Part shown: positions 1 through 41,732 of the stretch, piece by piece
How the letters are laid out: each line of letters starts with the position of its first letter
How positions within the stretch are numbered: position 1 is the first letter of the stretch
DNA from: a virus
DNA length: 41,732 nt
Virus record (IMG/VR): IMGVR_UViG_3300020391_000007
Span: 1 to 41,732 of that record
Reading direction: 5' to 3' (one strand)
Position numbers and translations under genes: made by a program
Notes under the pieces: model-generated
The model's input: the letters and a program-made list of their open reading frames with translations, nothing else
Database searches by the model: none
What the model was told of the DNA's origin: nothing

Positions 1-272
1 GTTATGTGTATGTGAGGTCACTCCTTGTGGTTAGGGGGTGGCCTCCTTTGTTTTGGCACAAAAATGTGAAGGGGTTTCGTTATATATGTGTGCGCTTAAA
101 CCCCCCTAGACCCCTTGCGCGCCGCGCACCCAACCGCATACCCACTATCAACCTGCCACCCATTTGTTACCGCGTGCTTCCCAACCCGCATACTCACTCA
201 CCTCACGACGGACTGTATATCCGACGCCACCTATTTCACCACTTGAGCTAACCCTCAGGTTCTTCATCGGCT
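1..272. repeat. Left terminal direct repeat (imperfect)
   Basis: The first 272 bases recur at 41460-41732. About the first 77 bases are identical and about the last 115 differ at one position. The middle (about 78-155) carries roughly 20 differences and one 1-base indel. The repeat starts at base 1 and its partner ends at the last base, as expected for direct terminal repeats of a T7-like genome. True terminal repeats are copied during packaging and should be identical, so the divergence is odd. No credible gene lies inside. Confidence 0.85.
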
Positions 273-1481: not shown

Positions 1482-3119
1482 ATGAATCCAAAACAACTAA
1501 GAGATTACTTGTTCACTAACCACTACAAGCCATGGCCTGTTCAAGAAGCCATCAAACCACACACTAACTATCAAGACTATCGAAAAGAACTAAATGGTTC
1601 TGAAAACATAGTCATAGCGTTTGGCCCTTCATCTGGTCAAACTTTTCCTCGTGAAGAATGTAGATATATCAAACAATCACCTGACGCCCACACAGCAGAA
1701 TACTTCTGGATGTTACGCTCAGACATCTTCTCATACAATCTACGCGGAAGTTTATCAGAAGGTGTGCCAACCGATTACGTAATATGTGTCCATGAAGGAG
1801 ATTATGACCCAGTTCATCCAGATGACATGGTTCTTACCTACTGCAACAGATGGCTTCCTAAAGAAAAATGCGTTACTCTATCGCCTCGATTTTATGCAGA
1901 CGACGTAGACAACAGTGACTCAATCTATCAATACATGGGCGACGTCAGAGAAACTTACGATGGCGATATCATTTGTAATGCCCACGCTATCTTTTGCGAA
2001 AGCGACCACAATTGGTATCACGAAGATGAAGCTAACAGTATCCTAGAATACAACGACTGTCGTGACTACTACGTTCATCCAGACGACGACAACGTTCGCT
2101 GGTGCATAGACATTAACCAATACGCCTTAACAGATGACTGTTATTACTGTCACCAAACTGATGATAACTACTACTATGAAAACAATCTACCATCGCATGA
2201 CCACACACAGACTATCCAAGACTATCACTGCGGCGTCGAACCAAACTTCCACTGCTTACCGCTCGACCAAAACAAACCGTTATCTAAATACACTATCGGC
2301 TTCGAAGTAGAAAAAGCTTGTCTAAACGGCGGTGCAAATGAAGCTGGTTCTTACATCGAACAACAGCCGCTATTCAGCCATTGGGAAACCGACAGCTCAT
2401 GCGGTATCGAAGGTATCACCAACATCTATTCACTAGACAACTTGCAACAATTCACAAACCACGCTTGCGACAGTGACTACCTTAACTTAAATACCAATCA
2501 TAGATGCGGTGGTCACATCAACTTCGCCCACCGAGAAAACAAGCTACAATACTGGCATATCCGTCCTTGGCTTGGTCTCATCTTCTCTATGTGGAAAAAA
2601 CGACTAACCAATCAATACTCAAGCTGTAACAAAAAGCTTAATCCATATCGTGGCACTGACCATCACTACGGCGCTCTCGTAGAAAAAGGCAGATTACGTA
2701 GCAACACTAGGTTCGAACTACGATTACCTAACAGAGTCAAAGACCGCGCATGTATCATACGTCGCTTCAAACTTATGCAAGCTCTAACAGAATGTATAGA
2801 ACACTACATCAATGAAGACTTCACTTGGATGACTGCTACTTACGATGACAAAATTCAAGGCATACCTAACTGGATGTATAAAGACGCAGACAACATAGAA
2901 TGGGACGTCAAAATCAGAGAAATTCTAGCCGACATCAGCGCACCAACACAAGCACGCACACGGTTCTTTGTCGAAAAAGCAAAAGACATGCTATTCGACG
3001 GCTATGCAGAACAAAACCACAAACGTGTTCTAACTTACGCATATGCTTTCCAAAGCTACATCGACGAAGAACAACCTTCACAATCAGTAACACGTCTAAC
3101 CAATGGATACATCAACTAA
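1482..3119 (+). CDS. Amidoligase (glutamine-synthetase-fold COOH-NH2 ligase family) with Cys/acidic N-terminal region
   Basis: A 545-residue protein. The C-terminal half carries the ordered motifs I associate with the phage/bacterial amidoligase family, whose members join a carboxylate to an amine using ATP. These are GFEVEK at 273-278, WETDSSCGIEG at 301-311 (acidic metal/ATP-site-like), CGGHINF at 342-348 and RFELRLPNRV at 410-419. The first 250 residues are rich in Cys, His, Asp and Tyr (for example DDCYYCHQTDD), suggesting a metal-binding or substrate-recognition region that is not part of the ligase core. The downstream gene, 21 bases away, encodes a glutamine amidotransferase/cyclotransferase fusion, the expected partner for supplying or removing an amino group. 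Substrate unknown. The family call rests on motifs seen by eye. Confidence 0.75.
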   Translation: MNPKQLRDYLFTNHYKPWPVQEAIKPHTNYQDYRKELNGSENIVIAFGPSSGQTFPREECRYIKQSPDAHTAEYFWMLRSDIFSYNLRGSLSEGVPTDYVICVHEGDYDPVHPDDMVLTYCNRWLPKEKCVTLSPRFYADDVDNSDSIYQYMGDVRETYDGDIICNAHAIFCESDHNWYHEDEANSILEYNDCRDYYVHPDDDNVRWCIDINQYALTDDCYYCHQTDDNYYYENNLPSHDHTQTIQDYHCGVEPNFHCLPLDQNKPLSKYTIGFEVEKACLNGGANEAGSYIEQQPLFSHWETDSSCGIEGITNIYSLDNLQQFTNHACDSDYLNLNTNHRCGGHINFAHRENKLQYWHIRPWLGLIFSMWKKRLTNQYSSCNKKLNPYRGTDHHYGALVEKGRLRSNTRFELRLPNRVKDRACIIRRFKLMQALTECIEHYINEDFTWMTATYDDKIQGIPNWMYKDADNIEWDVKIREILADISAPTQARTRFFVEKAKDMLFDGYAEQNHKRVLTYAYAFQSYIDEEQPSQSVTRLTNGYIN

Positions 3120-3140
3120 CCACACAATACACACACTACT

Positions 3141-4199
3141 ATGTGCTTAATAATACACAAACCAAACGCGGATACTATCATCCCGCAACACATACTCGAC
3201 AATGCAGAAGACATCAATCCAGACGGCTTCGGTATTGTTTACACTGACACCAACGAATGCATCCGCACTATGGATTACAACTATGCTCACGAACTTGTCA
3301 TAGCCAAACGCCCATTCGTTGCTCATTATCGTTACGCCACACGCGGCACTGTCGACAAAGCTACTTGTCATCCTTACCATATCCAAGGCCTCATACGTCT
3401 GTTCAGTAACGGCACTGTCGCCGACCTTGGTGACAAAGACACTTGTGACACAAAAATCGTCGCTGGCTATCTCAAAACGTTCAACCAAGATACATGGGAA
3501 CCTATGCTCAGCATGACCGAGACAAGATTCGCTATCACGTATCCAGACGGTAGTGTATCACGCCACGGCAAATGGCACGAAAAAGACAACGTGTTCTATT
3601 CCAAGAACAACTGCTTCCATACCAGACAATCCAAAATTGGATTCCACTATAGTAAATCATACAAAAGCACTTATAGCACGTATGGAGATTACTGGGACAA
3701 CGAAGACTACTGGGATAACGGTGTCTGCAATACAGGCACTAGCTTCAATACACCATATGATATGTCTGACACGTCTAGTGCATACGAAAACACAGGCTTC
3801 AAAATTGTAGATACCTTAGGTGACCAAGACATATACGACTGGCAAGACATTAACCTAGTCGCTGTCTACGGAACACTCAAGTCTGGACACACTAACCATG
3901 ACATCCTCGGTGACTCTAGTCTAATCGGTGTAGGCAAAACTGTTAGCAAATACGCAATGCAAGCCGACGCTATACCTTATGTATACGAACACGAGCATCG
4001 CGACCAAATATCCGTAGAAGTCTACGAAGTTGACGCAGACACCACCAAGCTACGTCTAGACAACCTAGAATCTCACCCACATTTCTATGAACGTAAACTA
4101 ACCGACATAGAACTCACCGATGGTAGCGTCCACACCTGCTGGCTCTACTTCGTTCAACAAGAACCCAAAAAACACATGAAATACATACAAACATATTAG
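3141..4199 (+). CDS. Class II glutamine amidotransferase fused to a gamma-glutamylcyclotransferase-like (AIG2/GGCT) domain
   Basis: A 352-residue two-domain protein. Cys2 directly follows the initiator Met, as needed for an N-terminal nucleophile after Met removal. Residues that match the glutamine site of GlmS-type enzymes follow in order: AHYRYATRG at 61-69, CHPY at 76-79, SNG at 89-91 (usually HNG) and DTK at 103-105. A tyrosine/aspartate/asparagine-rich linker spans about 165-235. The C-terminal domain has the GGCT signature AVYGTLKSG at 241-249 and a candidate catalytic Glu310 in LESHPHFYER. The first domain should release ammonia from glutamine; the second resembles enzymes that cleave gamma-glutamyl-amine bonds with cyclisation. 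It is encoded just after the amidoligase, so the two probably act in one pathway. A terminator follows. Confidence 0.8.
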   Translation: MCLIIHKPNADTIIPQHILDNAEDINPDGFGIVYTDTNECIRTMDYNYAHELVIAKRPFVAHYRYATRGTVDKATCHPYHIQGLIRLFSNGTVADLGDKDTCDTKIVAGYLKTFNQDTWEPMLSMTETRFAITYPDGSVSRHGKWHEKDNVFYSKNNCFHTRQSKIGFHYSKSYKSTYSTYGDYWDNEDYWDNGVCNTGTSFNTPYDMSDTSSAYENTGFKIVDTLGDQDIYDWQDINLVAVYGTLKSGHTNHDILGDSSLIGVGKTVSKYAMQADAIPYVYEHEHRDQISVEVYEVDADTTKLRLDNLESHPHFYERKLTDIELTDGSVHTCWLYFVQQEPKKHMKYIQTY

Positions 4200-4561
4200 C
4201 CCTACAATAGACTACATACTAATCATAACTAACATAACATTATTTATTATTATACTATATCTATCGGCTAAATAACCACAAAAGCTCAGAGATACCCTCT
4301 CTGGGCTTTTTTTCTGCTATTCCAGGGCCCCTGGTATACCCTTGCACTCGTCGCTGTCTTGCCCACCACTATCACGTTGCCTGTTTTTTGTTCAAAACGA
4401 TTATTTTTTATTCATAAATACAACGGTATGCCGCTTGTAGCAAATCCCCTGCAATCCGATATTATCCTTCGTCAACCCTTGACGTAAGGTATCCAACAAA
4501 AAGAGTCGGATTAGTTTCTTTTTTCTTGCTTTGTGTCGCAAACCTGCGAATCTTTAAAATT
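4200..4561. other. Intergenic region between early arm and integration module
   Basis: No gene is visible on either strand. It contains an AT-rich stretch (4220-4260), the terminator at 4283-4313, a CCAGGGGCCCTGG-like palindrome near 4322, and a small hairpin TCGCA-AACC-TGCGA at 4536-4549 just before the next gene. TATTAT near 4459, about 19 bases after a TTGTAG, could be a weak promoter for the integrase operon, but the match is poor. Confidence 0.5.
4283..4313 (+). terminator. Intrinsic terminator ending the early arm
   Basis: AGCTCAGAGA (4283-4292) pairs with TCTCTGGGCT (4298-4307) through ten pairs including one G-U, around a 5-base loop, and is followed directly by a run of T. It lies 84 bases after the amidotransferase-cyclotransferase stop and separates the early arm from the integration module. 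Confidence 0.85.
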
Positions 4562-4789
4562 ATGACCACAAGAATACACACAAGAAACACACAATATCGT
4601 AACTTATACCGTGCAAATCCCGTCGCCGTTAAGTTTACCACACAAAAAGTATGGGAAAGAGAGACTAAAGAACTCATAGATATCGCGCATGCCGCTTTTT
4701 GGGCTAGACGAAACTTAAAAGCTCCTTGGGTGTCTAAAGATACAGTCGGTGCGTTTGACTCGGCTGAAAGAGGGGATGGGTTAAAATGA
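4562..4789 (+). CDS. Small protein upstream of and overlapping the integrase gene
   Basis: A 75-residue basic protein starting MTTRIHTRNTQYRNLYRANP. A longer frame begins upstream at a non-standard position, but the ATG at 4562 is preferred because the sequence before it is AT-rich leader with a hairpin. The stop overlaps the integrase start in an ATGA arrangement (4786-4789), so the two are probably translationally coupled. The size, basic charge and place next to int would fit an excisionase or recombination directionality factor, but I see no clear winged-helix motif. This is inference from position only. Confidence 0.6.
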   Translation: MTTRIHTRNTQYRNLYRANPVAVKFTTQKVWERETKELIDIAHAAFWARRNLKAPWVSKDTVGAFDSAERGDGLK

Positions 4790-5793
4790 GTGTAAGATTA
4801 AACGGCAATAAGTTCTTGGCTGACTTCATGTCTAACGGAGTTCGTTATCGTAAACAGTTTCCTACCACCGAGGAAGCAGACGCTTGGGAAGCCGAGCTAA
4901 AGAAACGCATCAGGCTCAATATTCCTTATCAAGAGTTACTTGACGCCAAAAACGGCAAGATTACTATTGATGAGCTACTGAGTAAGACCTTTGTTCGTTA
5001 TTGGGAGGACACAGCTAACGAGTCTACTCAACTAGGTAACATCCGTCTTATCAACGAGTTCTTTGGAGCTAACCAGTCAGTAGACAAAATAGACGCCTCT
5101 TCTCTTGACGAATTTATTGGAGCTATGGAGCGTAAAGGCTTAGCGGCTTCTACCATAAATGGGCGGCTTGCAACAATTAGCAAGGCTCTCACTTACGCTC
5201 AAGATAGAGGCTACATAAACAGCCGACCTAAGATTGAACGGAAGAAAGTTAGTAACCAACGCCTTCGCTTCTTTACTGAAGAAGAAGAGTACGAAATGCT
5301 AGAGGCTTTGCGTGCCGACGGGCGTAATCATTTTGCCCACTTTGTTGAGTGGAGCATTGACACTGGTATGCGTCCTATAGAGTCCCGTAATGTGTCTCAG
5401 GCGTCTCTTCGTGAAGACCCAGAGCTAGGATACCTTATTGACCTGCGTAAGACCAAGAACGCTTACCCACGTACCATACCGCTAACCAAGAGAGCGCACT
5501 TCGCGTTCACTTATTTAACGTCAACTGAATTTATGCCCTTTGCCCAGTTTACAGAAAGTAACATCCGTAAAAACTGGAGGTTCGTCCGTGAGGCTATGAA
5601 TGATGTAGACCCAGAGTTCGTGTTCTATTTGACACGGCACACCTGTGCGTCGCGCTTAGTCCAACGCAATGTACCACTTCATGTGGTCAAAGAGTGGATG
5701 GGACACCGCACCTATGAAATGACTTTGCGCTACGCTAAGCTTACACCAAGGAATTTCCTTGACGCTAAGGTTGCGCTGGAGCAAGCTCTCTAA
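4786..5793 (+). CDS. int: Tyrosine recombinase (phage integrase)
   Basis: A 335-residue tyrosine integrase that would recombine attP with a bacterial tRNA gene. The N-terminal part (VRYRKQFPTTEEADAWE) resembles the arm-binding/AP2-like domain. The central SAM-like core-binding domain runs about 60-150. The catalytic domain shows Arg196 (DTGMRP), Arg284 in TRHTCAS, His307 in MGHRT and the nucleophile Tyr316 in LRYAK. The first position of the usual HxxR box is Tyr281 rather than His, a change tolerated in some phage integrases. It lies upstream of the RNA polymerase gene with attP between them, the arrangement known from integrase-bearing marine T7-like phages such as P-SSP7 and some pelagiphages. 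Confidence 0.95.
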   Translation: MSVRLNGNKFLADFMSNGVRYRKQFPTTEEADAWEAELKKRIRLNIPYQELLDAKNGKITIDELLSKTFVRYWEDTANESTQLGNIRLINEFFGANQSVDKIDASSLDEFIGAMERKGLAASTINGRLATISKALTYAQDRGYINSRPKIERKKVSNQRLRFFTEEEEYEMLEALRADGRNHFAHFVEWSIDTGMRPIESRNVSQASLREDPELGYLIDLRKTKNAYPRTIPLTKRAHFAFTYLTSTEFMPFAQFTESNIRKNWRFVREAMNDVDPEFVFYLTRHTCASRLVQRNVPLHVVKEWMGHRTYEMTLRYAKLTPRNFLDAKVALEQAL

Positions 5794-41459: not shown

Positions 41460-41732
41460 GTTATGTGTATGTGAGGTCACTCCTTGTGGTTAGGGGGTGG
41501 CCTCCTTTGTTTTGGCACAAAAATGTGAAGGGGTTTTGCTATATGTGTGTGTTCCAAATCCCCCCTAGAGGGGTCGCCGCGCCGCGCCCTCAACCGCATA
41601 CCCACTATCACCTCGCCACCCATTTGTTACCGCGTGCTTCCCAACCCGCATACTCACTCACTTCACGACGGACTGTATATCCGACGCCACCTATTTCACC
41701 ACTTGAGCTAACCCTCAGGTTCTTCATCGGCT
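41460..41732. repeat. Right terminal direct repeat (imperfect)
   Basis: 273-bp partner of 1-272. The central part differs. In particular, CCCCCTAGAGGGG here (near 41561-41573) is a palindrome, while the left copy reads CCCCCTAGACCCC. The window ends exactly where the repeat ends. Confidence 0.85.

Follow-up and report, generated by a model that had tools for sequence, protein, structure and literature searches.

Amidoligase gene sets are common in phages, and published accounts do not show what they modify. What, then, might two adjacent genes of this kind do near the left end of a marine virus of bacteria, and do they form a new system or a variant of a known one? The DNA analyzed here (the window) is the complete 41,732-nucleotide (41.7-kb) IMG/VR record IMGVR_UViG_3300020391_000007. 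A sequence-only reading of it had assigned one gene to the amidoligases and its neighbor to the class II glutamine amidotransferases (GATase II), fused to a gamma-glutamyl cyclotransferase (GGCT) domain. It had proposed that the two proteins form amide bonds, supply ammonia, and cut gamma-glutamyl-amine bonds, and had suggested reversible tagging or metabolite modification early in infection.

Genomic setting

The record is that of a marine T7-like virus, as the sequence-only reading had supposed. Pfam families in the window include RNA polymerase, T7-type endonuclease I, nozzle, connector, terminase, gp14, and tail-fiber proteins, and a 273-bp direct terminal repeat is present (window 1-272 and 41460-41732, 93% identity). 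The nearest relative of the RNA polymerase is that of an Autographiviridae Ayaqvirus phage (40% identity); this phage is without the amidoligase/fusion pair and has methylase genes in the corresponding arm. In T7-like phages the two terminal repeats normally match exactly; the mismatches here are concentrated within a stretch of ~90 bp, and IMG/VR classes the record as linear, without end repeats.

The pair lies 5' of a tyrosine integrase gene (4786-5793) and of the T7-type RNA polymerase gene, and it is also 5' of the RNA polymerase gene in those relatives that bear one, a position that would place it in the early region. The earlier placement of the pair in the host-takeover arm agrees with this position, but the claim that the location is striking is weakened by reports of such sets in the left or early arms of RIO-1, UFV-P2/LUZ24-like, and phiEco32-like podoviruses and of OM43 phages (PMC5498523, PMC3890496, PMC10580990). 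A site before the RNA polymerase gene of a T7-like phage, where host-takeover genes sit, would suit a counterdefense role in which the pair modifies or removes a host defense signal or effector early in infection. We consider this highly improbable, given that the pair has no PADLOC match and that its near-universal retention in very different phages argues against a single host-specific defense as its object. The same PADLOC result led us to reject the pair as a defense system in its own right.

Both in the window and in RNAP-bearing relatives, the tyrosine integrase gene stands between the pair and the RNA polymerase gene, and the virus is probably a T7-like phage able to integrate; a search of the window for a tRNA gene that could serve as the attachment site found none. 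Directly 5' of the amidoligase gene is a 95-amino-acid ORF (1174-1461), kept in contigs L001 and L003/L004, for which no family match was found.

Table 1. Features of the amidoligase/fusion segment of the window
Feature	Position	Strand	Description and basis
Divergent GS-fold amidoligase gene	1482-3119	+	ORF, 545 aa; profile-profile comparison, AlphaFold2, Foldseek
Amidoligase core, ~aa 265-430	2274-2771	+	Between N-terminal ~250-aa beta-hairpin-rich region and C-terminal helical part
Class II glutamine amidotransferase - gamma-glutamylamine cyclotransferase fusion gene	3141-4199	+	352 aa
N-terminal Ntn-type GATase II domain, aa 1-157	3141-3611	+	Met-Cys start, R64, N90-G91, D103; Foldseek
Linker, aa 162-229, low confidence	3624-3827	+	pLDDT < 50; missing in several relatives
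C-terminal GGACT/AIG2-like cyclotransferase domain, aa 239-346	3855-4178	+	YGTL 243-246, Glu310; Pfam, Foldseek, profile
Hydrophobic mini-ORF	4180-4275	+	31 codons, one predicted membrane span, +1 frame
Rho-independent terminator closing the segment	4280-4310	+	13-bp stem and T-run; -18 kcal/mol, z -4.25

A divergent amidoligase

The two ORFs, separated by 21 bp (Table 1), lie exactly where they had been reported and contain every motif quoted for them, those of the first protein being GFEVEK, ETDSSCGIEG, GGHINF, and RFELRLPN. Direct family searches with this protein were blank: no family in Pfam, PHROGs, or NCBIfam was reached at the curated cutoff, PDB sequences gave no match in a direct search, and direct HMM comparison did not place it in Pfam Amidoligase_2 (PF12224). 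Its identity was therefore settled by profile-profile and fold comparison. We gathered 59 relatives by profile (branch A4) and compared them with a second, Pfam-positive amidoligase family of 15 members (A5). PF12224 was matched by 14 of the 15 A5 members and, at E <= 0.1, by just 1 of the 59 A4 members; aligned profile to profile with hhalign, the two families matched at a probability of 97.8% (E 1.2e-12).

The AlphaFold2 model of the protein (pLDDT 88.8) is consistent with a ligase fold. Foldseek searches of the PDB with this model returned glutamine synthetases (GS), YbdK, PafA/Dop, and gamma-glutamylmethylamide synthetase with modest scores, the comparison with glutamine synthetase giving an E value of 3e-4 and a probability of 0.96 but a low TM-score (~0.2); from a viral library they returned many proteins annotated as amidoligases of phages, tf and CW02 among them, at E values down to 7e-12. 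G273, E275, E277, K278, E302, D304, S306, E310, G343, G344, H345, R374, E412, and R414 are invariant in all 59 relatives, and the acidic, His, and Arg positions among them presumably fit a GS-type active site, a mapping that we take from knowledge of the family. The protein has in common with Amidoligase_2 the GS fold, equivalent E-x-E, GxHxH-like, R, and E-x-R positions, and the profile-profile match, but it lacks the D-G-S-L...SPPL pattern and has DSSCG...GGHI and ELRLP motifs instead. Its N-terminal ~250 residues are rich in Asp, Tyr, and Cys and are missing from shorter members. Judged by profile and model, the gene product belongs to the GS-fold amidoligase superfamily in the broad sense, as a divergent branch. 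Since this branch is invisible to Pfam, such pairs are under-annotated.

An amidotransferase fused to a cyclotransferase

The second protein contains the amidotransferase motifs C2, H62-YRYATRG, C76-HPY, S89-NG, and D103-TK, followed in its cyclotransferase part by YGTLKSG (243-249). For the window protein alone the Pfam match of the amidotransferase domain is weak (GATase_6, E 0.07); among 78 relatives, 71 matched GATase_4 and 64 matched GATase_6 at E <= 0.1, with best E values of 8.9e-7 and 3.2e-6, respectively. C2, R64, T67, G69, N90, G91, and D103 are invariant in all 78 fusion relatives, as are YGTL and E310, and a Met-Cys start was found in 95 of 97, the remaining two being N-terminally truncated frames. 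Fusion frames L060:6253-6858 and L084:6199-6858 start inside the amidotransferase domain (profile position 69-87) and are possibly broken or misassembled copies.

AlphaFold2 modeled the amidotransferase domain with a block-mean pLDDT of at least 88 throughout, and Foldseek matched it to the GlmS glutaminase domain and the Ntn hydrolase EgtC; the linker that follows is probably disordered, to judge from the model. With its Cys after Met1, glutamine-site Arg, Asn-Gly oxyanion hole, and Asp, the domain has the sequence features of the class II (Ntn) family. It shares these residues and the Ntn fold with EgtC and GlmS but, at ~155 amino acids, is shorter than either. Transfer of ammonia to a synthase partner is a candidate activity, with EgtC-type hydrolysis as the alternative; the shortness of the modeled domain and its resemblance to EgtC, a gamma-glutamyl hydrolase and not an ammonia donor, would argue against ammonia donation.

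The cyclotransferase domain matched Pfam GGACT (PF06094) with an E value of 1.3e-19 (71.4 bits, versus a cutoff of 22.8), Foldseek aligned it with 3jud/3juc (E 3e-8), and its profile matched PDB entry 1vkb (E 1.7e-18), mouse and human GGACT both being found. E310 aligned with E82 of human GGACT, the residue altered in the E82Q entry 3jud. The family match, the YGTL motif, and the catalytic Glu identify the domain by sequence as a gamma-glutamyl(amine) cyclotransferase; fold, motif, and catalytic Glu are those of human GGACT (3jub/3juc), but the phage domain is joined to an amidotransferase. Domain assignments by sequence, profile, and fold thus support, as predictions, all three of the enzyme activities that had been put forward.

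These resemblances also bear on what the pair might do. One alternative is metabolite salvage, in which the fusion protein would be a double breaker of gamma-glutamyl amides (an EgtC-like hydrolase plus a cyclotransferase), the amidoligase would make or trade gamma-glutamyl amines, and nitrogen or amines would be freed for phage nucleotide synthesis in nutrient-poor seawater. The fold matches, which include EgtC for the amidotransferase domain and gamma-glutamylmethylamide synthetase for the amidoligase, agree with it, as do the action of the GGACT subtype on gamma-glutamylamines, the fact that human GGACT is the nearest solved structure, and the origin of most of the contigs in environmental metagenomes. 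Nevertheless, a cycle that makes and breaks one bond would achieve nothing if the substrates were the same, and the related set carried by non-marine phages, LUZ24-like and phiEco32-like (PMC5498523), also makes this alternative unlikely.

Reversible tagging, as first suggested, would have the amidoligase put a glutamyl group on an amine of a host or phage protein and the cyclotransferase remove it. Cyclotransferases require a gamma-glutamyl group with a free alpha-amine, and reversal by the GGCT domain would therefore work solely if the amidoligase added glutamate by its gamma-carboxyl, in which case the chemistry would be closed. The Pup ligase PafA and the depupylase Dop are among the GS-fold relatives, but the fold scores are weak (TM about 0.2), neither a tag peptide nor a Pup-like gene is evident near the pair, and no protein target has been published, the published guess being envelope or peptidoglycan modification. 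Such tagging by the pair is possible, although we regard it as quite improbable.

Conservation of the pair

The fusion gene was found in 97 contigs, 7 of which end too near its upstream side to be informative. In all 90 testable viral contigs an amidoligase gene lies 5' of the fusion gene on the same strand; in none of the 90 is it downstream or on the opposite strand. The pair is thus conserved together among relatives, as the original interpretation needed, and because most contigs were retrieved with the fusion protein as the sole query, this conservation is not a product of the search. Neighbor clustering across the 97 contigs revealed no third gene nearly as widespread, these two families being the only ones common throughout. 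Mapped on the fusion-protein tree, the amidoligase subtype changes 2 times, versus 20.6 in shuffles, and this sorting indicates that the pair is co-inherited. Among close relatives, dN/dS values for the two genes (0.37-0.50 and 0.19-0.33) reveal purifying selection.

Two other explanations were rejected. Chance motif matches are ruled out by the conservation of the pair and of its residues. A host-encoded origin was sought in one genome per species for ~85,000 species; the full fusion was present in just 2 of the 80 best loci, both of them on phage-like contigs.

The pair is also used by a second large phage group: contig L005 (MW202828.1) and similar contigs of ~60 kb carry it together with a groEL annotation and DnaA-like genes.

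A hydrophobic reading frame after the fusion gene

A hydrophobic mini-ORF overlaps the fusion gene at its 3' end, stop codon included (Table 1). In the T7-like members it is ~25 codons long and runs through the fusion-gene stop codon in a different frame, mostly +1 but -1 in L047-L049; the window copy and those of several relatives have no ATG, GTG, or TTG start. Every T7-like contig examined has such a frame after the fusion gene; among representatives the count is 14 of 14, compared with 5 of 97 control gene ends. Codon differences among six close relatives numbered 96 synonymous and 111 nonsynonymous in the mini-ORF frame, versus 15/197 and 22/172 in the other two frames, and an excess at the third codon position was found solely in the mini-ORF frame. 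Its occurrence and this single-frame excess argue against chance, and the substitution pattern indicates that the mini-ORF is under purifying selection.

The mini-ORF is a possible frameshift extension or a possible small membrane gene with an unusual start. Across the +1 group, the junction retains just one constant feature, a Tyr codon with the stop after it, and we would propose, tentatively, that in T7-like members ribosomes shift at this last fusion codon, so that part of the product is membrane anchored, giving an envelope-modifying enzyme with two forms, one of them docked at the membrane. The adjoining membrane ORF is in any case a lead on where the enzymes act. Hairpins equivalent to the terminator that closes the segment occur in relatives, conserved in place and changed in sequence.

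Relation to known phage cassettes and proposed function

RIO1-like podoviruses carry a seven-gene "peptidoglycan modification cassette" that includes a gamma-glutamyl amidoligase, a second amidoligase, an ATP-grasp enzyme, a GGCT, and a glutamine amidotransferase, is conserved in phiEco32, LUZ24, tf, PaP3, and CW02, and is hypothesized to alter the host surface and prevent superinfection (PMC5498523). An amidoligase/amidotransferase/GGCT set has likewise been described in the LUZ24-like phage UFV-P2 (PMC3890496), and in the annotated records of RIO-1, UFV-P2, and T2S2-k141_370465 we found the same enzyme set, unfused. Like the RIO-1/LUZ24/phiEco32-like cassette, the window has an amidoligase, a class II amidotransferase, and an AIG2-like GGCT whose coding sequences lie together among early and replication genes. 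There, however, the amidotransferase (420-486 amino acids) and the GGCT are separate genes accompanied by a COOH-NH2 ligase and an ATP-grasp enzyme, whereas the window has two genes, one for an amidoligase of divergent sequence and one for a fusion whose amidotransferase domain is shorter. Neither COOH-NH2 ligase nor ATP-grasp genes are among the window matches listed (25 of 34 matching Pfam families) or among the families common to its relatives. Among the forms of the system compared, this two-gene version is the smallest and would be the simplest to produce and test in assays; it reduces the question to three activities, the ATP-grasp and COOH-NH2 ligase genes being dispensable.

We think it reasonably likely that the pair is a compact podovirus amidoligase/GATase II/GGCT cassette that modifies either a peptide of the host envelope or a small amide metabolite. 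We favor substrates of these two kinds because of the way the larger cassette has been read in the literature and because of the neighboring membrane ORF. The GS-fold amidoligase would activate a carboxylate with ATP and join it to an amine or ammonia, while the amidotransferase domain would split glutamine via Cys2 and deliver ammonia, or else attack a gamma-glutamyl amide, and the cyclotransferase domain would free gamma-glutamyl-amine bonds as 5-oxoproline via Glu310. Synthesis of the two proteins would precede or accompany that of the phage RNA polymerase, and in T7-like members the adjoining membrane ORF would put them at the inner membrane; most plausibly, the cell surface would be changed to the benefit of the resident phage. 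Two observations weigh against this explanation. The internal gamma-D-glutamyl bond of peptidoglycan has its alpha-amine acylated, and the cyclotransferase would therefore be unable to act on intact peptidoglycan stems; moreover, the COOH-NH2 ligase and ATP-grasp enzyme of the full cassette are absent from the window matches listed. The envelope role is a hypothesis in its source as well (PMC5498523), and published accounts of the phage cassette give no measured substrate or activity for any member.

The marine OM43 phages MEP401 and MEP402 have an amidoligase and a GATase (PMC10580990). In MEP402 these lie 1.6-4.1 kb from the left end, and its GATase matched the profile of the fusion family (E 1.8e-24). 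Their amidoligase (~548 amino acids) adjoins an amidotransferase with a Met-Cys start, and the two lie at the left end of a marine phage genome as in the window, but the OM43 phages have no cyclotransferase domain and their amidoligase is of the canonical Amidoligase_2 type. The window pair is accordingly a slimmed-down, partly fused variant of a known phage gene set and no new kind of system; new relative to the RIO-1-like and OM43 sets are its arrangement as two genes, one of them a fusion, its amidoligase from a divergent branch, and the hydrophobic ORF of the T7-like members. In MEP402, the gene adjoining the GATase gene, gp06 (L193:1616-4128), is annotated "hypothetical protein"; its matches to Amidoligase_2 (E 9e-4) and to the family profile (E 9e-12) make it a probable Amidoligase_2 protein.
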